Notes: generated by a model not told the origin, from the sequence alone. A stretch of 64,000 bases of DNA from Singulisphaera sp. (GCA_027451445.1 DAIDJG010000020.1:1-64000), one strand, 5' to 3'; counted from the stretch's first letter, positions 1,890 through 14,567 are shown. Translations and numbers: made by a program.

Positions 1890-1938
1890 CGGAATCATAA
1901 TCCGCGTGTCGGGGGTTCGAGTCCCTCCGCCGCTATTT
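1890..1938 (+). other. Left attachment site (attL), 3' half of a CAU-anticodon tRNA gene
   Basis: These 49 bp are identical to 11956-12004. They hold the anticodon arm (GCGGA / ATCATAA loop with anticodon CAT / TCCGC), the T arm (GGGGG TTCGAGT CCCTC), the 3' acceptor strand CGCCGCT and discriminator A. A matching 5' acceptor (AGCGGCG) and D arm are absent upstream, so this is only a tRNA fragment. Tyrosine integrases commonly use tRNA 3' halves as attB. The CAU anticodon could mean Met or lysidine-modified Ile; I cannot tell which. Confidence 0.85.
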
Positions 1939-2315
1939 GCGAACAGCCCCGAACCACTCCGCAGAACCCCGCACATTTCAGCGGGTTACGTCAAATCGAC
2001 TCGGAGAATTGCAACCCCGCGAACCGCAGGGAACCGCAAGAAACCAAATCCTTCCGCGTCCTGACTGCTACCGCCAGTGCTACCGTTGCGTCAGTTGATG
2101 CGACGCATGAGAAGCCCGTCAAACCCGCTCCCGCGGCCCTATCCGACTCCAGTTTGAGTCTCGTAATCGACGCCTGGGACGCGCTTCCCGAGGCCGTTCG
2201 GGCCGGGATCGTAGCGATGGTCCGCGCGTCCACACCACCCGCTCCATCGACCGTTGACGGAATTGACGAAATCGACGAAAAGGCCCGGCAATCCCGGAAA
2301 GGGGGTGGCCGATGA
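1890..2315 (+). pseudogene. Displaced C-terminal part of the integrase (split at attP)
   Basis: From the first base of the left repeat this frame is open for 141 codons to TGA at 2313-2315. It reads the att sequence in exactly the frame used by the integrase through the right repeat (RNHNPRVGGSSPSAAI). It ends in LVIDAWDALPEAVRAGIVAMV followed by a charged tail. There is no start codon context of its own. Its stop overlaps the next gene's ATG as ATGA (2312-2315), typical of genuine coupled genes. In a circularised element the integrase would run 444 residues to attP plus these 141, giving 585. In the integrated state this part is cut off from its promoter and N-terminus. Confidence 0.7.
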
Positions 2316-2950
2316 CGTCACCAGGGCCACCCGCTTGGGCGCAGCAAGCCGGCGAGCCATCGCGCTGGTATGCGTGCTTCTGGCAGTATTACTGCCTTGC
2401 CGGGCCGGCCCGAACCCTCGAATCCGCCTGGCGCCGGTCACGCTCAACGGCAACAAGTAGCAGCATAGAGCAGCGCGCAAAGCCAACACGCCCGTCGGCC
2501 CATTTTTATGGCTTGGTCTCGGCCTGGCGATGGAGTGAGCGTGCCGCTGCCTACGATCGCGCCGACCGCGAGAAGCAGGCGCTCGCGCGCCGCGTCGCGA
2601 TTGAGGAAGCGAACACGCGCCATGCGATCCTGGCACGAGCAGCGTTCAACAAGACTGCGATGGCCATCAACGCCCTGAAGCCCGAGGCGCTCACCCCAGA
2701 TCAGGTCATCAGGCTTGGCGACTTCGCCATCCGCATGGAACGCCTCGCGCTGGGTCAGCCCCTCGTCACAGAGCGTCACGAGCACATCGGCGTGCCATGC
2801 TCCGGCCCTGCCGACGGGGTCGTTCATCAAAATTACGATCCGACGCCGGAGGACATCGCCAGGGTGCTGGAAATCCTACACGAGCACGGCGCGGTTGAAG
2901 AGCAAGCCCCCGCCCCAATCCCTTTGACAGGAGACGATCCCGATGTCTGA
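2312..2950 (+). CDS. Phage-like hypothetical protein, possibly terminase-small-subunit-like
   Basis: The 212-residue product has an N-terminal region rich in W, Y and A (residues 5-40), a segment SAWRWSERAAAYDRADREKQ near 70-90, and a helical region to about 150. The layout (short region, W..R..AYD motif, long helix) resembles phage-associated small-terminase or packaging-type proteins of planctomycetes and other bacteria, but I see no diagnostic motif. The ATG overlaps the upstream stop in ATGA and follows an AAAGGGGG ribosome binding site, so it was probably coupled to the integrase tail. It overlaps the next gene by 8 bp. Confidence 0.55.
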   Translation: MTSPGPPAWAQQAGEPSRWYACFWQYYCLAGPARTLESAWRRSRSTATSSSIEQRAKPTRPSAHFYGLVSAWRWSERAAAYDRADREKQALARRVAIEEANTRHAILARAAFNKTAMAINALKPEALTPDQVIRLGDFAIRMERLALGQPLVTERHEHIGVPCSGPADGVVHQNYDPTPEDIARVLEILHEHGAVEEQAPAPIPLTGDDPDV

Positions 2951-3362
2951 GCAGATTCTGACCGAGATGACGCCTGCAGAAGCCTCGGCCCTCACGGAAG
3001 CGGCCCGGAAGAACCCTCTGGCCGCCGTGGCGGCGATTCTCGCGGTGCTAGTCGCGAGACGGCACGAGCGCGGTTACAACCATACCGCCATCAAGTCCAT
3101 GATCCTTGGTGGCTTCTCCGATGAGGCCGTCTCAGACGCCGTGCAAGCGATCCTCCGGGACGTCATCTCGGCGATGCTCGAAGTCATCCCGCCACCGTCC
3201 GCGCTTATCGCCACCCCCGTCGCGCACGCGGACGAAAATGCCCACGTGCATACCGCCGCGCCTCAGCGTAGGAGGCCCAACAGCAAGCCCAAGTCGTCCA
3301 AAAGAATGCACCCCGGCCCTAGACCCAAAATCATGCGAAAACGTAAGCGTTCGAATCCGTAA
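2943..3362 (+). CDS. Small hypothetical protein with basic C-terminus
   Basis: Unrecognised 139-residue protein. The first two thirds are predicted helical and alanine-rich, with RGYNHTAIKSMILGGFSDEA near residues 40-60, which could be a small helix-turn-helix. The last 35 residues are very basic and proline-rich (RRRPNSKPKSSKR...), suggesting nucleic acid binding. A GACAGGAG ribosome binding site lies at a good distance before the ATG. It overlaps the preceding gene by 8 bp, so the two are probably co-translated. Confidence 0.55.
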   Translation: MSEQILTEMTPAEASALTEAARKNPLAAVAAILAVLVARRHERGYNHTAIKSMILGGFSDEAVSDAVQAILRDVISAMLEVIPPPSALIATPVAHADENAHVHTAAPQRRRPNSKPKSSKRMHPGPRPKIMRKRKRSNP

Positions 3363-3556
3363 CTATGTCTTCGATTGCGAGATGAGAGGCCGATGCTTAT
3401 GAACGAGTGCTCTTGTTCCGTTCTGACGGGTCGATCAAGTTCCAAGGATGAGACCTTCGCCAACCAACGCCTCCACCGCATACAGTGAAACGACCGCGTT
3501 CCAATCGGGAAGAACGAAGTCCGAGGCTTGCTGGCGTGAGTATGGGCTCACTCGGA

Positions 3557-4867
3557 TCATGATTCCTCATTGTTCATGATATCCTTAGCCCACTGCATCA
3601 TGTCCTTGGCCCACTGCGCGGCTTCGGGACCGTCGAGGACGTCAGCTATCTCCGTCAGGTCCGTCACGGTCCACTTGGCGCCTTCGCGGGTCTCGGAGAG
3701 TAGGGTCGCAACCTGGTCCACCACGTTGTCATCTTCGTCGGCGTCAAGCAATGGCCATTCGTCGGCCCTCTGCATGGCCTGAAGCAGCTCTAGCGCTGAC
3801 TCAAGTTCCCGCGACGCCGCCCGCAACGTCTTCACGGCGACCTCAAGATTTTCCGGAGACAACTCCATGCGCTTGAGCTTGGGCTTCGCGGGCTGGTTCG
3901 CTGGTCGACCCGACCGGGGCAGGTTCTTCTGGGTGACGGACAGTGGGGCCGGCCCCAGGCCCTCTGGCCCGAAGGGATGCTCACCGTCGAGGTCTGGCAA
4001 ATCGCCCACGCCTAGAACGCGGCCTAAACGATCTAAGGTAAAGACTTCTCGAGTCCACTTATCATTCGGGTCGTACGGGCCATGAATTGACCCATAGCAT
4101 CCTTTGGAATGAACTTTGTGATGGAGGTCTGACACTACCCAGTGGACGTAGACCAGATGGTCCTCTGGGTCAATTCGCTTTACGGTTCCAATTGCACGAA
4201 TTTCGATATTAGGGTGTGTGCTTATCTTCTTAATCGCGATGCGGTCGCCCGGCCGAATGCGATTTCTTCGTCTGGTGAACTGCGGTTGGTCTGCGTCCTC
4301 CCAGCCAAGAAGCCAGTAGCCTTTCTGTACGAACTCCTCGTATTGATCCTCTCGCCCACCCCACATTGCCCCTACAACCCAGTATTGAGGGGCGATCGCA
4401 GATTCGGCCCATTCGGGCCAGTCTTGGGCGGTTGCTGCTCGGCGTATGATGAGTAATCCTTCGGGGCTGAACGGCATGAAATAGCCTTGTCGAATCTGCC
4501 CGCGTGATACAATCGGCCCATCCTCGATTTCTAATTCGCCAAGCTCTTCGATGATCTCGCTCTTGAGTATGGGAGGATTAAGTTCAAAGTATTCGGCTTT
4601 GAAGCTATAACCCACTCTCTCTGAGCCCCCGTAGGGGCCCAAGTCGACTTTGCTTTTGACCGCCCTTGTCACCGCGCGACTGAGAGCAACGACACTCTGC
4701 CAACGACCAGACCGGTAGTGGACAGTGACATCGCCGGCGCGAACGTCTCTGACCATGCGCCGGAACTTCATCCCCCTTTCGGTCTGTTCGACATCCGAGC
4801 AAACCAGGCCAGCGCGATGCTCTTCGTCCCAGCATCGTGTTTGGTTGCACCACCAGATTCGTGGCAT
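3557..4867 (-). CDS. Protein with two EVE/PUA-like domains (modified-base reader-like)
   Basis: The 436-residue product starts at ATG 4867, chosen because AAGGGG sits 8 nt upstream; an ATG at 4900 is less well placed. Residues about 1-70 (RIWWCNQTRCWDEE...GDVTVHYRSG) look like the PUA/EVE fold often found fused to McrB-type GTPases. Residues about 160-270 (QYWVVGAMWGG...GYWLLGWED...RPGDRIAIKK) look like a second EVE-like domain. The C-terminal third is charged, probably helical, and carries no nuclease or NTPase motif. EVE domains bind modified bases in DNA or RNA and occur in type IV restriction and other defence proteins. Here it stands alone on the minus strand between plus-strand core genes, so a cargo defence or regulatory role is inferred. 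Its base composition looks more AT-rich than the flanks. Confidence 0.6.
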   Translation of the reverse strand: MPRIWWCNQTRCWDEEHRAGLVCSDVEQTERGMKFRRMVRDVRAGDVTVHYRSGRWQSVVALSRAVTRAVKSKVDLGPYGGSERVGYSFKAEYFELNPPILKSEIIEELGELEIEDGPIVSRGQIRQGYFMPFSPEGLLIIRRAATAQDWPEWAESAIAPQYWVVGAMWGGREDQYEEFVQKGYWLLGWEDADQPQFTRRRNRIRPGDRIAIKKISTHPNIEIRAIGTVKRIDPEDHLVYVHWVVSDLHHKVHSKGCYGSIHGPYDPNDKWTREVFTLDRLGRVLGVGDLPDLDGEHPFGPEGLGPAPLSVTQKNLPRSGRPANQPAKPKLKRMELSPENLEVAVKTLRAASRELESALELLQAMQRADEWPLLDADEDDNVVDQVATLLSETREGAKWTVTDLTEIADVLDGPEAAQWAKDMMQWAKDIMNNEES

Positions 4868-5011
4868 TGAGGAAACCCCTTCGCGCTTCTGCCATCCCAC
4901 GACAAGGCCAAGGTCCCGGCCCAGCGAGTGTTACCGGTTGCTTTGGCGCTAACATGCGCCCGTCGCACGAGGAACATGGAAAGCAGCGTCCAACGGATGT
5001 TCGGCACCCTG

Positions 5012-5060
5012 AAAAAAAAGTCGCCCCCACGCAGGCCACAACTCCCGCGTGAGGGCGAAG
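5012..5060 (-). terminator. Minus-strand intrinsic terminator
   Basis: On the minus strand TCGCCCTCACGC pairs with GCGTGGGGGCGA, followed directly by TTTTTTTT (plus strand A-tract 5012-5019). It lies about 90 bp downstream of the ribbon-helix-helix gene and would separate it from the EVE-like gene. Confidence 0.75.
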
Positions 5061-5151
5061 ACGGGGCAGAACCCCGATCCAGTTTTGGCGTGGTTGTGGG
5101 CACGCTCGATATGGAGAGTACCCACGCACGGATGTCGATGCAAGGGGCCGG

Positions 5152-5388
5152 TTAACGCTTTGGGGCTGTGACCAAGTAGCCGCGCTCGCGAGCATAAGAC
5201 ACAAGCGCCCGGTCGATCAGATCATTGAGCGAAGGGGATCGATCGAAACTCGCGAGTGCTTCCACCCACGACTTCCATTCGGGCGTGCCTCGGATCATGA
5301 GGACCGCCGAGCGAACGCGCGATTCCTCTGCTTTCGGCTCCCCCTTGCCCGCGCCCTTCTTTGGCCTTGCCATTAATCCAGCACCCAC
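5152..5388 (-). CDS. Ribbon-helix-helix (CopG/Arc-like) DNA-binding protein
   Basis: A basic N-terminus (ARPKKGAGKGEPK) precedes a short strand-like segment (SRVRSAVLMIRG) and two helices (WKSWVEALASFDRS, LNDLIDRALVSYARER), the layout of a ribbon-helix-helix dimer that inserts a beta strand in the DNA major groove. The start is GTG at 5388 because CCGGGAGGG sits 8 nt before it; the internal ATG at 5373 has no such site. That gives 78 residues. It is transcribed divergently from the gene at 5662 and may regulate the shared control region and itself. It could also be the antitoxin half of a pair, but no toxin is adjacent. Confidence 0.65.
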   Translation of the reverse strand: MGAGLMARPKKGAGKGEPKAEESRVRSAVLMIRGTPEWKSWVEALASFDRSPSLNDLIDRALVSYARERGYLVTAPKR

Positions 5389-5661
5389 GGTTATGCCCTC
5401 CCGGTGACAATTTGGTCCGCCCACGTGTTCACCGGGATTATACACGAGTGGCTATCCAATGGCAACCTTAAGAGTATCGGCATCGCGAGAGAACTGTCTA
5501 CAAAAAATCAGGGACATTGTGAACTACCTCCTTGCTTAATGGATATCCACTGGATACAATTTGGATGTCGGGTGAGGGAATGGCCCTGACCCAACAAAAA
5601 CGGCCCGCCTCGGTGGTTCAGACCGAGACGAGCCAAGACCAGGTGCTAAGGACACCCAGTC
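5389..5661. promoter_or_regulatory. Divergent control region with TGGAT repeats
   Basis: This AT-richer gap separates the minus-strand RHH gene from the plus-strand gene at 5662. It contains CTATCCAATGG near 5449-5459 and a cluster of TGGAT at about 5540-5565 (TGGATATCCACTGGATAC and TTTGGATG), partly palindromic, which could be the RHH operator. A hairpin CTCGGT...ACCGAG lies at about 5611-5630. Operator function is inferred from position and repetition. Confidence 0.4.
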
Positions 5662-5916
5662 ATGACCACCGTCTTCGATTCGACCCGCCCAGTCAAGCCA
5701 TCCGCGCGCAAGCCCTTCGCCGCTGGTCTCGCCCGGACCCCGGCCCGCCAGCCGCGCTTCGAGCCCACCCCCGACGACTTGGCATGGGCCGCCGCGAACC
5801 TGAACGCCAACACGACGCATTACGAAGTGATCGGCCAGTCTGATGAGGCGATCGACTTCGCTTACGGGTGTGCTCTGGCCACAGCCCGCCACGAGGCCGG
5901 CTTCCGCTGTTACTGA
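5662..5916 (+). CDS. Small hypothetical protein
   Basis: Unrecognised 84-residue protein. The N-terminal 40 residues are basic and proline-rich; the C-terminal half (DDLAWAAANLNANTTHYEVI...) is probably helical and ends with GFRCY. A ribosome binding site AAGGA lies about 11 nt before the ATG, after a hairpin that could attenuate expression. It is the first plus-strand gene after the divergent control region. No known domain is evident. Confidence 0.5.
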   Translation: MTTVFDSTRPVKPSARKPFAAGLARTPARQPRFEPTPDDLAWAAANLNANTTHYEVIGQSDEAIDFAYGCALATARHEAGFRCY

Positions 5917-6367
5917 ACCGCGATGCGTCCCACAAGCCCCTGGCAACGTGCTGGGGGCCTTCCCGGATGGCGACGAAGCGAGGGTTCAGACCGATCCCGA
6001 CAGCTACCAACACTGACGACTTCTCCGCCCGCGTGACCGACCTTCCCACGTAGCGACCCGGCAACGACTCGACCGCACACGCGACGTGTCCCACAACCGC
6101 GACGAAGAGGTCCGACGGGAACAGGACTGGGCCGAGTACCGGCCTGGTCCGACCGGATGTTCCGGCGGATCAACCGCAACGAGCCCGGACCGCAACCCGA
6201 CTGAGTAGCGCGGGGCCATGGACGTCCCCGAAGGCATCTCGTTTTGATACGATGATTGCGGGTCGGCGTAGTGGTGGCCACCGCTGCGTCAAGCGGCCGG
6301 GGTCGCGTGCCAGGTTCTCCTTACTGGTGCGCGGCCCGGGTCGGCCCACTTCAAGGAGACTCCTACC
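5917..6367 (+). other. Apparent non-coding or decayed stretch inside the element
   Basis: No reading frame here has a convincing start, ribosome binding site or protein-like composition on either strand; the open frames are arginine/proline-rich GC artefacts. The end of the stretch supplies the ribosome binding site AAGGAGA (about 6353-6359) for the next gene. I see no RNA gene. Confidence 0.4.
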
Positions 6368-6715
6368 ATGTCTGCGCAACCCTCGCGCATGCCCCTTTCC
6401 ACAATCCGGCTCGAAGACGGGCGAACCGTCCGGATCTTCGCACCAACGGATGACCTGTGGATCGAACTCAATCAGATGACCAGATCATCAGAGCAGAGAC
6501 AGCCCTTTGGCGTGCTTCGCACAATCGTGTCTCATTGCACTGATGCGACCTTCGAGGGCTCGCCCAAAGACCTCGGTCGGCTCGTTCTCGCGCTTCTCAA
6601 GACTTGGGACAACCAAGATCAGATGTTTATTCTGATGTGGTGGCGCAAGAAAGCCAGATTGGAGCTTGAGCAGTTCTACGCGGCGTACAGCGAGTCGAGG
6701 CCCTGGTGGGTCTAG
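6368..6715 (+). CDS. Hypothetical protein, 115 residues
   Basis: Unrecognised protein. An N-terminal part with beta-strand character (STIRLEDGRTVRIFAPTDDLW) precedes a helical C-terminal part with several tryptophans (TWDNQDQMFILMWWRKK). Both the strong ribosome binding site (AAGGAGACTCCTACC before ATG) and protein-like composition support it. It overlaps the next reading frame by 10 bp, so the two may be coupled. The strand-rich start recalls small phage tail or assembly proteins, but nothing specific can be claimed. Confidence 0.6.
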   Translation: MSAQPSRMPLSTIRLEDGRTVRIFAPTDDLWIELNQMTRSSEQRQPFGVLRTIVSHCTDATFEGSPKDLGRLVLALLKTWDNQDQMFILMWWRKKARLELEQFYAAYSESRPWWV

Positions 6716-7050
6716 GCCTCGTTCCGCACCCAGAGCTTACGGAACAGATCGACCGGATAGCCGAACCGCCGCTGGCCCCCAATGGACAGGGGGCGACTCC
6801 GGGCCAGCGAACGCCTGAGAACCCGGACGAAGTCCTTGACTTTGTGACCCTGGATCAAGCTGCCGCCATGGTCAACCGATCGAAGCGAACCCTCGAACGT
6901 TACAAGACGAAAGGGACGCTACCCGTCCCGGCCGTCGAAGGGGGAGGCGGACGAGCCGACCGATGGAACTGGAAGACGATGGGCCCCTGGCTGGAGAAAG
7001 AATTCGGCATCAAACTACCCACGACCTTCCCAGCGAACCACCGAACCTGA
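6706..7050 (+). CDS. MerR-like / excisionase-type HTH protein
   Basis: The 114-residue product has a poorly conserved N-terminus and then a winged-helix core at about residues 45-95: DFVTLDQAAAMVNRSKRTL, followed by ERYKTKGTLPVP, the pattern of helix-turn-helix proteins that read DNA with a MerR-type fold (excisionases, phage regulators). The start used is GTG at 6706, overlapping the preceding stop; an internal start nearer residue 45 cannot be excluded. It could act as a recombination directionality factor for the integrase or as a transcription regulator of the downstream replication genes. Confidence 0.55.
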   Translation: MGLGLVPHPELTEQIDRIAEPPLAPNGQGATPGQRTPENPDEVLDFVTLDQAAAMVNRSKRTLERYKTKGTLPVPAVEGGGGRADRWNWKTMGPWLEKEFGIKLPTTFPANHRT

Positions 7051-7148
7051 CCGACATCTAACCGACAACCGCCGACAACCGCACGCAAGCGCCCCCCTCA
7101 CTCTTACGATCGCCCGCGTGGATCCCATATCTCTACGGAGACACGCGG

Positions 7149-7370
7149 ATGATAGAGCCCGTACTGATCGAGCCCGACGCCCTCTACGATGACGCCGCGC
7201 TGCGCCACGCCATCGGGCTGAGCCCCGCGCGCCTGGCCGCTGCCCGGCGATCGGGAAGCCTGCGGCACACCCGTCAGGGCAAACGCACCCTCTACAAGGG
7301 CGCATGGGTCCTGGAGTGGTTGGAGAGCGAGGCTCGCCCCCAACTTAACCTGGAGGGGGGTGATGCATGA
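7149..7370 (+). CDS. Mini helix-turn-helix protein (first of three)
   Basis: The 73-residue product is a single compact domain: LYDDAALRHAIGLSPARLAAARR (helix-turn-helix) and GSLRHTRQGKRTLYKGAWVLEWL (wing and last helix). The pattern of a short recognition helix followed by R..GK..LY..WVLEWL is that of excisionase or MerR-like DNA-binding domains. A GGAG site precedes the ATG. Its stop overlaps the next ATG (ATGA at 7367), which begins a chain of four overlapping genes ending with the RepA-like ATPase. Confidence 0.6.
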   Translation: MIEPVLIEPDALYDDAALRHAIGLSPARLAAARRSGSLRHTRQGKRTLYKGAWVLEWLESEARPQLNLEGGDA

Positions 7371-7693
7371 CCCAGAGCACCCGAAGCACGCGACTCACGC
7401 TCGCATTGGGAGCGGACCAGCCAGTCGCGCCCGCCGGACCCCCTGATCTATCCCCCGGCGTCGTCCACCTGTCGGAGCCCCTGGCCCGCGTGGCGATCCG
7501 CCTGGCGCTGGGCGGCGTGGAGCCCCTGCTCGAGCTCGACGACTGGACGACGATCCTGGCGTGCTCGCGCCGCCAAGTCGAGACGATGCGCGCGGCCGGA
7601 AAGTTGCCCCCACCCGATCTCCACATCGGCAAGCTCCCGCGCTGGCGGGCCCCGACGGCTCGCGAGTGGCTGGCGAAGGGGGGTGAGCGATGA
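7367..7693 (+). CDS. Mini helix-turn-helix protein (second of three)
   Basis: The 108-residue product has a variable N-terminal half and a C-terminal DNA-binding domain (LLELDDWTTILACSRRQVETM, then RAAGKLPPPDLHIGKLPRWR, TAREWL), again MerR/excisionase-like with the tyrosine-free recognition pattern found in phage regulators. It overlaps the genes on both sides by 4 bp (ATGA at 7367 and 7690), indicating translational coupling. It is not a duplicate of its neighbours at sequence level, though the fold is probably shared. Confidence 0.6.
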   Translation: MTQSTRSTRLTLALGADQPVAPAGPPDLSPGVVHLSEPLARVAIRLALGGVEPLLELDDWTTILACSRRQVETMRAAGKLPPPDLHIGKLPRWRAPTAREWLAKGGER

Positions 7694-7893
7694 GGGAGCC
7701 CACACGCCCCCCCGCCGCCATGCTCGTGCCGCCCCGTGTCGCGTGCGAGATGAGCAGCCTCGACGCTCGCGAGCTGGACCGACTCATCCGGTCAGGCGCG
7801 GTCCGCGTCGAGCGCGTCGACGGCAAGCTGCTCGTGGCCCTCGACGATGTCGAGCAGGCCACCGGCCAGAGCCGAAAGGAAGTAGACCAGTGA
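7690..7893 (+). CDS. Mini DNA-binding-like protein (third of three)
   Basis: The 67-residue product contains AAMLVPPRVACEMSSLDARE, then LDRLIRSGAVRVERVDGKLL, a pattern compatible with a small winged helix in which VERVDGKLLVALDD forms the wing. The stop TGA overlaps the GTG start of the ATPase (GTGA at 7890-7893), and the AAAGGAAG inside this gene is the ribosome binding site of the ATPase. Function is unproven; the shared fold with the two preceding genes is inference. Confidence 0.5.
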   Translation: MREPTRPPAAMLVPPRVACEMSSLDARELDRLIRSGAVRVERVDGKLLVALDDVEQATGQSRKEVDQ

Positions 7894-9140
7894 TACCCTG
7901 CCCCTCTGACTGTTACGTGCTGGCCCGGCTCCTGGCGGGCCAGCACGTGAACGGCGAACTGGCCCAAGTGAGTGAGGCGTGGCGGCCTGCGGTCGATTAT
8001 CTTGTCGAGCTTCGATCTGACGCCCGCGGCGCGGCCTTCGAAGCGATGTGTGCGGCGCCCGGAATCGACCACGATGCGGTGTTAAAGGCGGTTGCGCAAA
8101 TCGACCCCACGGGGCCGGTGCCCGAAGCGCGCGTGCTCCGCCGGTCCGCTCACCTGGGGGATCTCGCCGTCAGCTCGTCGTCCACGCGCTTCGCGTGGCC
8201 CTTCTACATCGTCAGAGGCCACTTCAACCTGCTGTCGTCCGACCCCAAAGTCGGGAAGACCCACATCATGCTCGACCTGGCTCGGCGGCTCTACTTCCGC
8301 GAGCCCTGGCCTGATGGGCATGATCCGACGTTTCCAGCCGGCACGGTGACGCTCTGGGTTTGCGGCGACCGTCACCAGGATGAGCTACGGGAGCGCGCCA
8401 CGGCGTTCGGGTTGCCCGGGGAAGCGGTCAAACTCAACTCGCTGCCCGACAACCCGTACGGTGGCTGGGACCTTGACGAACAAGCCAACATCGACCTCAT
8501 GCGGGACCTGATCATCAGCGAGCGGCCCGGACTGGTGTTCATTGATACGGTTTGGCGAGCGACCCGCCGGCAGCTCCGCCGCGAGGAAGAAGTAAACGCC
8601 CTACTCAATCCCCTGGTGACGATCGCGCAAGACACCGACACGGCCATCATCGGTGCCATGCACCTCTCGAAAGACGGTGACACCCTCGGGAGGCGGCTCG
8701 AAGGGCTTGCGCGGGCGATCCTGAAGCTCTACCGGCCCGATCCTGAAGGGCAACCGAACCGAAGGAAGCTCACCGTAATCGGCAATTTCCGGGAACCCCC
8801 GCCGCTCGGTCTGACGATGGGCGACACCGGATGCGAGTACGACTCCGAACCGCCCTCCGAACCGGCCACCAACAAGGGCGGCAGGCCAGCCGCGGAATGC
8901 ATCAAAGCGCAAGAGTTCATCGTTAAGCACCTGAAGGAGCGGAACGACCGGAAAGGAATCGACCTTATCAACGAATGGACGCAATTAATGGGCGAAGCCA
9001 AGGGCACGATCTTCAATGCCCGCGCGGCGCTCGTGAGTGCGGGTCGTCTGACCGTGGACGACTCCAAGAAACCCCAAATATGGCATCTGGCGGATACGGG
9101 GTCAGAAACGGTCAAGAACCCGGTTTCTGACCGCTTCTGA
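7890..9140 (+). CDS. RepA-like/RecA-fold ATPase (AAA_25 type)
   Basis: Predicted replication ATPase or helicase loader. The GTG start at 7890 is set by the overlapping GTGA and an AAAGGAAG site 7 nt upstream; 416 residues. The Walker A variant SSDPKVGKTHIMLDLARR lies at about residues 112-129, and the Walker B region GLVFIDTVWRA at about 213-223. A polar segment TDTAIIGAMHLSKDGD follows, as in hexameric RepA/DnaB-superfamily ATPases that couple nucleotide hydrolysis to origin opening. The C-terminal 80 residues are probably a winged helix. It precedes a primase gene and a repeated 11-mer lies around its 3' end, so a role in starting replication of the excised element fits. Confidence 0.75.
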   Translation: MIPCPSDCYVLARLLAGQHVNGELAQVSEAWRPAVDYLVELRSDARGAAFEAMCAAPGIDHDAVLKAVAQIDPTGPVPEARVLRRSAHLGDLAVSSSSTRFAWPFYIVRGHFNLLSSDPKVGKTHIMLDLARRLYFREPWPDGHDPTFPAGTVTLWVCGDRHQDELRERATAFGLPGEAVKLNSLPDNPYGGWDLDEQANIDLMRDLIISERPGLVFIDTVWRATRRQLRREEEVNALLNPLVTIAQDTDTAIIGAMHLSKDGDTLGRRLEGLARAILKLYRPDPEGQPNRRKLTVIGNFREPPPLGLTMGDTGCEYDSEPPSEPATNKGGRPAAECIKAQEFIVKHLKERNDRKGIDLINEWTQLMGEAKGTIFNARAALVSAGRLTVDDSKKPQIWHLADTGSETVKNPVSDRF

Positions 9141-9601
9141 CCTCCAAACTTAAAGTCAAGAACCTCCGACCCCTATACCCCCCGAGGTTGTTGACCTGAA
9201 TCCCGGACTCTCAGGCATGACCCAAAGCGCCCAAAACTCAAAGTCTGACAACGGCCGAATTGACTGGTCAGCCGTCAAGGGTGCGCTCGATATGGCGACG
9301 GTCGCGACCCGCGTGCTCGGCACGGCACAGGGACGTAAGGGCGGCAAGGGCCGGCTCTGGTGGCGTTGCCCACTCGGGACCCACGACGACAGAAACCCGT
9401 CGTTCACTATCATCACAGGTGAACAATATTTGCATTGCTTTGGATGCGGTTGGCACGGCGACATGGTTGCATTGGTTCAGGCGCTGAACCCATCAATGAG
9501 TTTTCCTGACGCGGTGAGTTACCTCGTGGGAGCGCCGGCCCCCAAAGTCAGGTCAAGAACCTCTGGCGTGTATGGTTTCGGTGACCGCGAGGTTTCTGAC
9601 C
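9100..9601. repeat. Candidate iterons (11-bp motif, about eight copies)
   Basis: Consensus GGTCARRAACC or its complement GGTTYYTGACC. Exact or near copies: 9100-9110 (GGTCAGAAACG), 9110-9120 (exact), 9122-9132 (complement, exact), 9132-9142 (CGCTTCTGACC), 9154-9164 (aGTCAAGAACC), 9186-9196 (GGTTGTTGACC), 9551-9561 (exact), 9591-9601 (complement, exact). Six lie within 100 bp at the end of the ATPase gene and in the gap before the primase. Clustered short repeats beside a RepA-like gene are typical of iteron origins; function is inferred. Confidence 0.55.
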
Positions 9602-10374
9602 CGCCATCGGGGCTTCCCTATTCCGACGCTCTCGCCCTGACAGAAGAGTCGGAGCGGCGTCTCTGGACACCCGATGGGGCCGGCGCCCTCGATCAGCTCC
9701 ACGGCCGCGGGCTGAGTGATGCGACGATCCGCGCGGCCCGGCTCGGGTTCACGGCCCGCGTCTCGTACCCTACCCGGACCGGGGGGACGGCCCGCGCGTC
9801 GGGCATCGTAATCCCGTGGTTCGACGGCGACCGCCTCGCCCTGGTCAAGATCCGACAGGACCGCCGAAAGCCCCGGTATGCGGAGTGTCACCGGACCCCG
9901 GCTCACGTGACGTGCTATCCCAGCCTGGCGGTCATCCGGCAGGGGGCGCCGCTGGTCGTGACCGAGGGAGAGCTTGACGCTCTCTTTCTCGGCCAAGAAG
10001 TCGCCGGGCTGGCGTGCGTGATCACCTTGGGGAGCGCTTCGAACAAGCTCACGGCGCGGTTATTGACCGCGTGCCTGGTGTGCCCGTCGTGGTTCCTCGC
10101 CACGGACAACGACCCGGCCGGCGATAGGGCTGCCGCTGACTGGCCGGCGCGAGCAGTCCGGGGCCGGCCGCCGAGCCACCACAAGGATTGGACCGAGGCG
10201 CGGCAGGCCCCCCACCCGATCAATCTGCGCCGCTGGTGGAGCGACGTCTTGAGCGGCAATCTCCGGCCCGCGCTCTACACCTGGGATGAGCTGTCGAGTT
10301 GGCGCTGGGGACCCGCCATCGATAACCACGAAGGGGGAATCGTCATCGAGTGGCCCACGTCGGTACACGCTTGA
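9217..10374 (+). CDS. CHC2 zinc-finger / Toprim DNA primase-like protein
   Basis: Predicted primase that makes RNA primers for the element's replication. The 385-residue product opens with a CHC2-type zinc-binding domain: a C..H pair (CPLGTHDDRN, about residues 50-60) and CFGCGWHGD (about 74-82). A Toprim domain follows: VTEGELDALF (glutamate motif, about 248) and ATDNDPAGDRAA (D-x-D motif, about 295-305). Length is shorter than housekeeping DnaG (about 600) and typical of plasmid or phage primases without helicase-binding domains. The gene lies 76 bp after the ATPase across the iteron-like cluster. Confidence 0.85.
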   Translation: MTQSAQNSKSDNGRIDWSAVKGALDMATVATRVLGTAQGRKGGKGRLWWRCPLGTHDDRNPSFTIITGEQYLHCFGCGWHGDMVALVQALNPSMSFPDAVSYLVGAPAPKVRSRTSGVYGFGDREVSDPPSGLPYSDALALTEESERRLWTPDGAGALDQLHGRGLSDATIRAARLGFTARVSYPTRTGGTARASGIVIPWFDGDRLALVKIRQDRRKPRYAECHRTPAHVTCYPSLAVIRQGAPLVVTEGELDALFLGQEVAGLACVITLGSASNKLTARLLTACLVCPSWFLATDNDPAGDRAAADWPARAVRGRPPSHHKDWTEARQAPHPINLRRWWSDVLSGNLRPALYTWDELSSWRWGPAIDNHEGGIVIEWPTSVHA

Positions 10375-10405
10375 CTCTGAGCCAACTATGGGGTAGGATG
10401 TGGGT

Positions 10406-10612
10406 ATGAGCGACGAACCCTTCAGCGAACAGTTGCGCCGAGCGCTCAACGAGTCGGGGTTGACCCGTTACCGCATCGCCAAGGAACTCGGGGTAAGCCA
10501 AGCGACCCTCAGCAAGTTCATGTCGGGACAGCGCGGGTTGTCGATGGCGGTTGTGGACCGGGTGTGCGGCCTGTTGGGGTTGATCATCACGAAGAAGCCT
10601 GAGAGCAAGTAG
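10406..10612 (+). CDS. XRE-family (Cro/CI-type) HTH regulator
   Basis: The 68-residue protein is essentially one helix-turn-helix: SEQLRRALNESGLTRYRIAK, then ELGVSQATLSKFMSGQRGLS, then AVVDRVCGLLGL. The recognition helix is QATLSKFMSG, as in Cro/CI and antitoxin-like regulators. A start at GTG 10400 is also in frame; ATG 10406 is preferred because TAGGA sits 8 nt before it. It lies 11 bp before the integrase, suggesting that the two are co-transcribed and that this protein may control integrase expression. That is inference. Confidence 0.75.
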   Translation: MSDEPFSEQLRRALNESGLTRYRIAKELGVSQATLSKFMSGQRGLSMAVVDRVCGLLGLIITKKPESK

Positions 10613-10623
10613 GGAGGGGACCG

Positions 10624-12021
10624 GTGGCGAGCATCTTCAAGAAGGACAAGCGTCGCAAGGGCGCCCCGTGGTACATCGACTACTTCGACGAGAACGACGT
10701 GCGCCAGCGGGAGAAGGGGTGCCCGGATCGAGCGGCGACCGAGCAGATTGCCCGCAAGCTGGAGACCGACGTTGAGCTGCGCCGGCGCGGTGTTATCGAC
10801 GTCAAGGATGAGCGCCGGGCCGAGGCCAACCTCAGGCCGCTCACGGAACACTTCGACGCCTTCCAAGCCGCCCTCGTGGACCGGGGGAACACGGCCAAGC
10901 ACGTTGACCTCTACGTTGAACGGGCCCGGCGTGTGGCCGCCCTCGTTCTGGGCGCGGCGCTGCCGGAGATCGACCCACCGAAGAAGAAGACGAAGAAGGT
11001 CGAGCGCGATGCGGCCGCCCTGCTGGTGACCTCCGTGCTGAAGACGGGACGTCTTTCCGACATGACCCTGGAGGCGGTCCAGAAAGCGTTGTCGGTTCTG
11101 AAGGATAGCGGTCGATCTCTCGAGACTTGCAACCATCATCGGGCCGCCATCCGGGGGTTTAGCAAGTGGGCCTGGGAGACGGGCCGCACGTCAGCGCACG
11201 TGCTTCTCGGTGTGACTGGTTTCAACGCCAAAGAGGATCGGCGGCACGATCGCCGCACCCTTGGTGTGGACGAGTTGCGTAAGCTCATCAAGACGGCCGA
11301 GCGTGGTCCCGACTACCGCCAGATGACCGGACCCGACCGGGCGCTCTGCTACCGGCTCGCCGTGGCCACGGGCTTGCGGTTCTCGGAAATCCAGACGATC
11401 ACGCCGCGCTCGTTCGATTGGAAGGCGGACCCCGCGACGGTGACGGTAGCCGCCGGCTACACGAAGAACGGTGAACCAGCGACGCTGCCCCTGGCTCCCG
11501 ACCTGGTCACCGACCTGCGTTCCCGCGTGCTCGACATGTCCCAAGACGCTCCGGTGTTCGTCCTGCCGGACCGCGGGGCCACGATGCTTCAGATCGACCT
11601 TGAGGCCGCCGAAATCCCGTACTGCGATGAGTCGGGCCAGTTCTTCGACTTCCACTCGCTACGCTGCCAGACCGCCACGCTGGCGGATGCGGCCGGTAAC
11701 TCGCCGCGCGTGGTTCAGAAGCTCATGCGTCACTCGACGCTGGAACTCACCGGGCGCTACACACGTCCGCGCGCCGTTGACGTGGAACGCGCCGCCCTGA
11801 CCCTGCCCACGCTTCGCCCGATGGCGTCGAACCGTGAGGCCCGCTCCGCCACCGGAACCGACGATTCGGCCCCGAGTGCTACCGCCAGTGCTACCGACGA
11901 GGACGACTTGCCGCGCAAGTCCAATGAGCGTAACATCCTTGTGGCGGTCGCTACACGGAATCATAATCCGCGTGTCGGGGGTTCGAGTCCCTCCGCCGCT
12001 ATTTCTCAACTTCCAAGTTGA
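10624..12021 (+). CDS. int: Tyrosine recombinase / integrase (integrated, shortened form)
   Basis: Catalyses integration and excision at the tRNA att site. The start is GTG at 10624 after AGGGAGGGG. N-terminal arm-binding-type region 1-70 (WYIDYFDENDVRQREKG), core-binding domain about 70-200, catalytic domain about 210-390. Catalytic residues visible: R252 (TGLRFSEI), K281 (YTKNGE), H344 and R347 (FHSLRC), H370 (MRHSTLE) and the tyrosine Y379 (TGRYTRPR). From residue 445 onwards the codons are the att sequence itself; the last four residues (QLPS) and the stop come from flanking chromosome. The frame through att equals the open frame of 1890-2315, so the circular form would carry 141 residues instead of 21 here. 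Confidence 0.92.
   Translation: MASIFKKDKRRKGAPWYIDYFDENDVRQREKGCPDRAATEQIARKLETDVELRRRGVIDVKDERRAEANLRPLTEHFDAFQAALVDRGNTAKHVDLYVERARRVAALVLGAALPEIDPPKKKTKKVERDAAALLVTSVLKTGRLSDMTLEAVQKALSVLKDSGRSLETCNHHRAAIRGFSKWAWETGRTSAHVLLGVTGFNAKEDRRHDRRTLGVDELRKLIKTAERGPDYRQMTGPDRALCYRLAVATGLRFSEIQTITPRSFDWKADPATVTVAAGYTKNGEPATLPLAPDLVTDLRSRVLDMSQDAPVFVLPDRGATMLQIDLEAAEIPYCDESGQFFDFHSLRCQTATLADAAGNSPRVVQKLMRHSTLELTGRYTRPRAVDVERAALTLPTLRPMASNREARSATGTDDSAPSATASATDEDDLPRKSNERNILVAVATRNHNPRVGGSSPSAAISQLPS
11956..12004 (+). other. Right attachment site (attR) within the integrase 3' end
   Basis: This is the second perfect copy of the 49-bp tRNA 3'-half repeat (anticodon arm with CAT, T arm, acceptor strand). 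It encodes integrase residues 445-460 and part of 461. No 5' tRNA half is present upstream on this side either. Confidence 0.88.
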
Positions 12022-12118
12022 TCACGACTTACGCGTAACCCGTCGCATTCACATCTACAAGCCGGTGCCCCACGCTAGGGCACGAAAACGGCGAATTAAC
12101 GGCAGTAATCCGGCAACA

Positions 12119-12193
12119 GAAAAGCCAAGGGTCAAGCTTGGTTTTTTGTTTTTCAAGAAAAGCCAAGGGTCAAGCTTGGTTTTTTGTTTTTCA
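12119..12193 (+). terminator. Tandemly duplicated intrinsic terminators
   Basis: A 38-bp unit is repeated head to tail at 12119-12156 and 12157-12193 (last base altered). Each holds a stem CCAAG...CTTGG followed by TTTTTTGTTTTT on the plus strand, a Rho-independent terminator shape. They lie about 100 bp after the integrase, just outside attR, and would stop transcripts leaving the element or host transcripts entering on this strand. Exact duplication suggests a recent event. Confidence 0.7.
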
Positions 12194-12901: not shown

Positions 12902-14247
12902 GAGTCAAGGCACCGCGTGACATTCGGTTTGCGAGGTAGATTTCAGGTGTCGAGACCTCTCCCCCGACCAGACGCATCCGATGACTGCCACGAACGGAGT
13001 TCGCATCGAAGTCGGCGAGACAAGTATCAGGGATTCTGGCCAGGCTTGATATCAGGGAGGTTTGCGAGAAGCGCGTGGTTTTCTGCAGAGGAATCCCGGG
13101 TCACGGTCAAGCAGCGGCTCACGCTGGCCGCAAAAAGCGGCGGAAATCGACGGCTCTTCGCCACCTCCGTCTCGCGTCTCGCCGTTCGGCGGCTCGCTGG
13201 TTCCACTGAGTAAGAAGGCGCCGACCTCGAAGTGATCCGCCGCCCTGGCGGCAACCTCGAGCGTGAGCAGCTAAGGAATCGGAATACCTTCGGCCCGACG
13301 AAAAATCACGAAATCCTTACCATCAAAAATGGTCGGAACTCCTGCGCGTATCGACAATTGATTCAACGTAAGCGGGGCAAGAACTATCGAGCTACCAGGA
13401 GCATATAGAAGGGGAGATTGCGCTCGGTTCACCAACGTCCCAGGGACCCGTTCCGCGACTCGATCGCGGACAGCAGAGGAAGCAGATGAGGATGAGGACG
13501 GAGAAAAACTGCGTTCGGGTCTTGTCCTCATCTTAAATCCTAATCCCATAGGGATTTCCGAAGCGGATGCGCGGCCGTCCACCGCGGAGCGCCTCGCGCC
13601 GCTGCGCGGCGTTCCGACCCACCCTCCGTCTCCCGTGCGTCGCACACGTTCGGTCGACGCTCTGGGGAACCCGAAAGTTCACCCCTCTCGTGAGTGCGAT
13701 CGTCCGGATGATGAAGACTGTCAACCCGTCCTCAACCCGCGAAGTTCTCCGCACACCCCGGGCATCCCCACCGGGCGATGAACCGAAACGAGCGCGCGCC
13801 CGCGCAGCGCGGTATTCGGCGACTCGGAGCCCCAAGGCGGACAATGAGTTGCGATTCCGAGTAGCGGAATGGGAGCGGCTCTTCGGAGCGCCAGGGGAAA
13901 CAAGGGTTACGACAGGACAACGGCTCTCGCGCGGCGCCATCGCGTTAAATGAAAGCACTTAACACCCTCTATCGCAACGCACGAATAGGCCACTCTCCCT
14001 TCCTTGTCCGGGTATATAATGGATTTATTGTAAATACTGGAGCGATTCTTGCACTTTTCGGCCACCCATCAAGGCGTGATAGAGCTGCGAGCTGGAACAG
14101 TGCTCCCATGCCAAGATCGGCTAAACAATGCGCCATGGGGTATTGGCTGTTCTCGCACGCGGCGCTGACGTTTGATGAAGAATCATGACCTACCGAGCCA
14201 TGTCGGACAGCCATGATCCCCCGATCTCGGCGATCACAGGGCCTGTG
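12902..14247. other. Long stretch without convincing genes
   Basis: About 1.3 kb of GC-rich DNA between the LexA-like gene and the integrase scrap. Frames at 13271-13645 (minus) and 13567-13962 (plus) are open but rich in arginine, serine and proline in the manner of non-coding high-GC DNA, and they oppose each other. I see no start context, RNA gene or clear repeat. It may be decayed accessory DNA. Confidence 0.35.
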
Positions 14248-14315
14248 TTCAAGTCTCACTCGCTCCGGTGCCAGACCGCTACGCACGTTGACCAGGCCGG
14301 CAATTCGCCGAGGCA
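14248..14315 (+). pseudogene. Short remnant of an integrase catalytic domain
   Basis: The plus frame reads SHSLRCQTATHVDQAGNSPR, matching the integrase's own HSLRCQTATLADAAGNSPR, the catalytic H-x-x-R segment. The frame then breaks within about 10 residues, with no tyrosine motif in phase. It lies 2.2 kb outside attR, so it is the trace of a different, older insertion related to the present element. Confidence 0.6.
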
Positions 14316-14567
14316 CAGGGTCAGCGACCACTCACTACCTGCTCGCCCATTGCGCCGGGGGCCACGGGTCGCTCGCGGGCGGCTACGTCCAGGCGGTGTC
14401 GTTCGCGGGGCACATCGATATCCGCGACAACGTCGTCTACGACCGGGGCCACCGCACTGAGGCAATCCGCTCTGCCTGGCGATTTCTCGGACTCGAACGC
14501 CGACCCGGAGAGCGACGGCTTCACGCTCCTCGAGCCGAGTCTTCACGAGCTCAATCTTCGCCCGGCC
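14316..14567. other. Probable decayed coding fragments
   Basis: After the integrase scrap one frame reads AGHIDIRDNVVYDRG, resembling a rung of a right-handed beta-helix (pectate lyase-like) protein; this suggests a truncated secreted-protein gene. No start and no continuation is found. The assignment is weak and based on a single short motif. Confidence 0.3.

Follow-up and report, generated by a model that had tools for sequence, protein, structure and literature searches.

An integrated element in a contig of Singulisphaera sp. (GCA_027451445.1, DAIDJG010000020.1:1-64000) raises the question of what becomes of a tyrosine integrase when the attachment site at which it recombines lies within its own reading frame. 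The whole stretch of 64,000 nucleotides that was analysed is referred to as the window; the element is bounded by two copies of a 49-bp repeat, and the following features define its ends.

1890 to 1938, + strand: left att core (attL), exact copy of the 49-bp repeat, in the same frame as int
1939 to 2315, + strand: detached C-terminal coding part of int following the core, stop included, open in phase with int
10624 to 12021, + strand: tyrosine integrase, integrated form, 465 aa (PF00589, E 9e-13; phrog_1 integrase, 8e-31)
11956 to 12004, + strand: right att core (attR), inside int, 3' part of a tRNA-Met(CAT), exact copy of the 49-bp repeat

The reading frame across the attachment core

Codons 1-444 of the integrated int gene are encoded by the element, codons 445-460 by the core, and the last five residues (SQLPS) are host-derived, comprising one mixed codon and four host codons. 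The catalytic domain is located entirely upstream of the core; PF00589 was matched above cut-off, and the catalytic motif DFHSLR ... MRHS ... GRYT is kept across the integrase alignments. Reading the left copy of the repeat in the int frame revealed 141 open residues followed by a stop at 2313-2315, and joining int, core and tail in silico yielded a stop-free frame of 585 residues. An earlier note on this DNA had claimed that attP lies inside int, with the frame entering the right copy at codon 445 and the left copy staying open for 141 codons to 2315, and that the integrase would have 585 residues in the circle and 465 with a four-residue host-derived end in the integrated state; these claims were confirmed in each point, with the first codon of SQLPS being mixed. 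Its wording that integration amputates the integrase holds for the C-terminal tail but is too strong for the enzyme, as the catalytic domain stays intact after integration.

The tRNA-Met(CAT) gene from which the repeat is derived is intact elsewhere in the genome, on contig C365, and there a different integrase enters it from the opposite side. Neither att copy in the window represents a complete tRNA, and the element therefore occupies a decayed or partial tRNA copy; given this, the copy in the window may no longer be active. An empty integration site was sought in relatives, but the right flank was found in none of them.

Several other structures were observed in the flanks. Just right of the element (12118-12193), a 38-bp terminator-like unit is present in two copies, perfect and in tandem, and a 26-bp piece of it was found again on several other contigs of the genome. 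Further to the right (14221-14316), a short integrase fragment with the catalytic motif SHSLRCQTATHVDQAGNSPR probably remains from an older island. On the other side, immediately left of the element (1358-1562), long inverted repeats are nested in one another (44 nt at 80% and 28 nt at 96%) and may represent a miniature transposon or a large hairpin, with an Rfam miRNA match below cut-off.

A frame that stays open across a repeat could arise by chance, and a rival explanation of the locus is that attP just overlaps the 3' end of int, as it does in some phages, with the frame past the core being non-functional read-through. Two further elements of the same genome, integrated at unrelated tRNA cores of 48 and 47 bp, are organised alike: their int genes run into the right-hand repeat, and reading on from the left-hand repeat in the int frame leads to a tail homologous to that of the window element. 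Within the family, the shared repeat is covered by the int frame and by the tail frame alike in 26 pairs, of which 24 were in phase, including the window element and the two elements just mentioned; with an expectation of one in three per pair, this corresponds to a chance probability of ~5e-10. Of the two out-of-phase pairs, one has an 18-bp repeat that is not derived from a tRNA, and the other is a composite locus containing integrase debris. Beyond the 26 pairs, five more in-phase pairs were found, four of them in other families (L115, L124, L126 and L127) and the fifth at L190.

Departures from the layout were also detected. At one locus (G006, contig C272) the frame agrees but int stops before the core, two integrases (L217 and L234) terminate ahead of the downstream tRNA, and some relatives are without detectable tail. 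As judged from these sequences, the split int design is frequent but not universal. In a separate case (L170, 8328-10087), an integrase ORF enters the tail region in another frame, which fits two different elements lying side by side. In another (L002, contig C218, 950-1330), the integrase runs antisense into a tRNA-like gene interrupted by ~280 bp, perhaps by a self-splicing intron; a search for a catalogued intron in this interrupted tRNA gave no Rfam match at gathering score. The integrase of L233 has the same terminal peptide as that of L002.

Coding repeats and the conserved tail

The coding sequence on both sides of the core carries short direct repeats, and the tail contains a conserved motif.

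2066 to 2085, + strand: putative P' arm site, TGCTACCGCCAGTGCTACCG, inside the tail ORF, matching 11877-11896
2142 to 2237, + strand: conserved tail motif, LSLVIDAWDALPEAVRAGIVAMVRAS region (profile match E 1.5e-15), predicted to form a helical hairpin in relatives
11877 to 11896, + strand: putative P arm site, TGCTACCGCCAGTGCTACCG, an 8-bp repeat occurring twice at a period of 12, inside int, exact 20-bp match to 2066-2085

In most elements, shared tandem direct repeats that recur every 11-12 bp are present in the coding sequence before the core and after it. For 20-mers, the best match inside one element had a median of 18/20 compared to ~14/20 between elements (p 6e-9), single between-element matches reaching 20/20 because related elements have the motif in common; in inverted orientation, the paired flanks matched at 15/20 at most. 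Where int is antisense to the tRNA, the repeats are located at about -160 and +60, and where int runs along the tRNA, at about -79 and +127 to +182. The geometry is similar relative to the tRNA, and therefore attP is inverted relative to int between the two classes. On the int tree this orientation has switched at least two times, and the frame is open in both classes. The paired repeats are inferred to be arm-type sites that bind Int, and in most elements the whole attP, comprising the core and both putative arm sets, seems to be situated within the int coding sequence.

The separated tails follow the consensus PDLAxVVxAWPxLPEAIRAGILAMVRA. A profile built from three tails retrieved ~75 matches in 28 of the 45 family genomes, mostly in short frames, and the integrases of the family tails are located downstream on the same strand. 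Tails, again mostly in short frames, were present in 193 out of 398 sampled genomes of the class, and the layout is class-wide. The association of the tail with planctomycete integrases that the earlier note had made is supported. Scanning GTDB contigs resulted in 112 confirmed tail places; among the 80 listed, nearly all belong to Planctomycetota (Planctomycetia and Phycisphaerae). A few tails lie on MAG contigs assigned to Latescibacterota, Zipacnadia and Actinomycetes (L185, L205, L187 and L193) and represent either inter-phylum transfer or misbinning. A tRNA T-loop motif was located within 350 bp upstream of 56 out of 77 GTDB-wide tails, compared to 2.6% of control windows.

Codon-position identities of 0.72/0.82/0.47 among 75 non-redundant tails point to conservation at the level of the protein. 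The median dN/dS of closer tail pairs (~0.27) indicates purifying selection, collecting tails by peptide similarity being a bias that shifts this value downwards. AlphaFold2 modelling of a natural undivided ORF (L172) placed two terminal helices with pLDDT 96-97 and the rest at low confidence; the tail is thus predicted to be a helical hairpin. Comparing the tail with PDB sequences gave no significant match, its ORF had no match in Pfam, and IMG/VR contigs yielded two detached tails and nothing else.

These data bear directly on the possibility of a simple overlap between attP and the end of int. The ends that the host provides range from 0 to 70 residues and show no conservation, and since such ends are tolerated, the exact terminus of Int appears not to be critical in the integrated state, as read-through would have it. 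The tail, however, is conserved as protein despite unrelated cores, the family pairs are overwhelmingly in phase, and the end encoded by the circle after the core is nearly constant in length (mostly 60-78 aa in the antisense class, with exceptions of 97 and 153 aa). We therefore regard non-functional read-through as unlikely, and favour a tail that belongs to the integrase.

Most members of a sister integrase clade (L236-L261) run into tRNA-like peptides (AAGIAPASR, GGGGNCTRVPRS and WRRRESNPRPV). Their tails are missed by the profile, and the split design may extend beyond the counted cases.

Undivided frames and the genes of the element

A single polypeptide linking tail and catalytic segment, which the earlier note had named as the homologue to look for, was seen in several genomes. 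ORFs in which the segment with the catalytic tyrosine is joined to a tRNA-derived core and to the tail were found in a member of the Phycisphaerales (L172), in Paludisphaera soli (L148) and in a member of the Isosphaeraceae (L158), all three without their N-terminal parts. A further case, on a 3.5-kb contig (L253), comprises 507 residues with a nearly complete integrase, a T-arm-like core and a variant of the tail; this ORF begins at the contig edge, and the same genome also has separate copies of the tail variant. Undivided ORFs may represent tandem junctions, excised forms or relics. These frames show that nature does encode polypeptides of the predicted kind, with catalytic segment, core and tail. 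Two sister integrases (L225 and L227) have a weaker tail-like end right after the catalytic domain and no att. Undivided int-tail genes were sought in PLSDB plasmids and INPHARED phages, and none was found. A frame of 668 aa (G073), the longest open one surrounding any tail, was examined as a candidate and proved not to be an intact int.

Between its two ends, the window element encodes the following proteins.

2312 to 2950, + strand: terminase-small-subunit-like gene (phrog_6299, E 1.8e-7), with an ATGA overlap with the tail stop
6706 to 7050, + strand: excisionase/regulator-like HTH protein, candidate directionality factor (phrog_66, E 9.5e-5; HTH_17 below cut-off)
7683 to 9140, + strand: AAA / DnaB-like ATPase (PF13481, 8e-16; phrog_19, 1e-5)
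9217 to 10374, + strand: DNA primase with CHC2 zinc finger and Toprim (PF01807, PF13155; phrog_47, 3e-17)
10406 to 10612, + strand: small Cro/C1-type HTH regulator, immediately ahead of int (PF13560, PF01381)

By its predicted genes the element resembles a phage satellite. In common with the PICI satellites, it carries int, an Xis-like gene, primase/replication genes and a TerS-like gene in about 10 kb, the xis and terS matches being weak. It differs in that attP would bring int and the TerS-like gene side by side in the circle.

A second explanation is that the tail embeds the P' arm and lets translation or transcription of int continue into the genes at the left end of the circle, which would be switched on only after excision. 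Such a logic has been reported for Tn916. The ATGA overlap between the tail stop and the TerS-like gene speaks for it, as int in the circle would lead straight into the left-end genes, and the coupling of int to the gene at 2312, as the earlier note had proposed, is to this extent real in the window. As a rule, translational coupling had to be rejected: overlapping downstream ORFs were found for 27 out of 70 tails compared to 43% of control stops. A conserved gene following the tail was likewise discarded, as the downstream gene differs between elements. An expression-carrying tail would moreover leave the conserved hairpin sequence unexplained, and we judge it improbable, slightly more so than a simple overlap.

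One gene in two DNA states

We propose that the locus is a small integrating element. Its attP would comprise a tRNA-derived core with a tandem-repeat arm site on either side and would, within the int frame, separate the catalytic domain from a conserved hairpin, predicted to be helical, at the C-terminus. The circle would thus encode a tailed integrase of 585 residues. Recombination at the tRNA-derived site splits the gene: the catalytic part remains at attR, where the host supplies a short end (465 aa in all), and the hairpin part comes to lie at attL, about 10 kb away. Excision would restore the long form. The tailed Int, made from the circle only, may favour integration or act in the free state, whereas the tailless Int made from the integrated copy may excise the element, perhaps together with the Xis-like protein, or be quiet, so that the state of the DNA itself would decide which form is made. 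The split, the common frame, the paired repeats, the conservation and spread of the tail and the undivided ORFs are seen in the sequences themselves; the explanation as a whole, with the state deciding the form of Int, we consider probable. We infer from the sequences that the tail alters recombination according to the state of the element; a switch of direction or a lock on integration through loss of the tail is plausible. The more far-reaching view of a phylum-wide integrase family, in which the state of its own gene serves as directionality switch, the two forms differ in recombination, and Int, attP and switch form one mobile cassette, is put forward tentatively as a possibility somewhat short of even.

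The design has its closest counterpart in the suicidal integrases with attP in int, which according to a review of 2021 are exclusively archaeal (PMC8371274). In the SSV-type integrases of SSV1, pTN3 and pT26-2, integration separates an int(N) part from a catalytic int(C) part, and the truncated forms are reported to be inactive in vitro (PMC8371274). Here as there, att lies inside the integrase gene, which is divided on integration and would be made whole again by excision. In contrast, the planctomycete catalytic domain stays whole and only the C-terminal hairpin is removed, the host is a bacterium, and paired arm-like repeats are present in the coding sequence.

Mycobacteriophage BPs offers a further parallel, as integration removes a degradation tag from its gp33 repressor (PMC4557955). 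In both cases attP is within a gene whose product is shortened C-terminally, here from 585 to 465 aa, with a different activity of the shortened form in BPs and possibly in Int; the BPs gene, however, is a repressor that loses a degradation tag, whereas the planctomycete gene is int itself and loses a conserved predicted hairpin. That the tail is likewise a stability tag which destabilises the Int made from the circle and is removed by integration would follow the logic established for gp33 (PMC4557955), but the C-ends of the tails vary widely (GGGR, ACKQ, ASK, VPE, GHDA), none of them resembling ssrA, and what is conserved is the predicted hairpin, making this the least likely of the explanations considered and a very improbable one.

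Phage lambda has its attP outside int, and its integrase gene remains intact. Lambda Int and the split integrases have in common the catalytic fold family of tyrosine integrases and tandem repeats on both sides of the core; in the planctomycete elements, the core and both repeat sets are coding. A bacterial integrase of the design described here was not found in the open-access papers searched; subscription reports of phages with an attP overlapping the end of int may exist.

For planctomycete genomes, the detached tail provides a practical marker for the far end of integrated elements, and the split design accounts for short ORFs starting with tRNA-derived peptides, e.g., GGTRTPDTRIM. A design comparable to the archaeal self-disrupting integrases is widespread in Bacteria, with the catalytic domain spared and a conserved predicted hairpin detached. 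One gene in two DNA states would thereby provide a natural pair of tailed and tailless enzymes, with which control of integration versus excision is directly testable.
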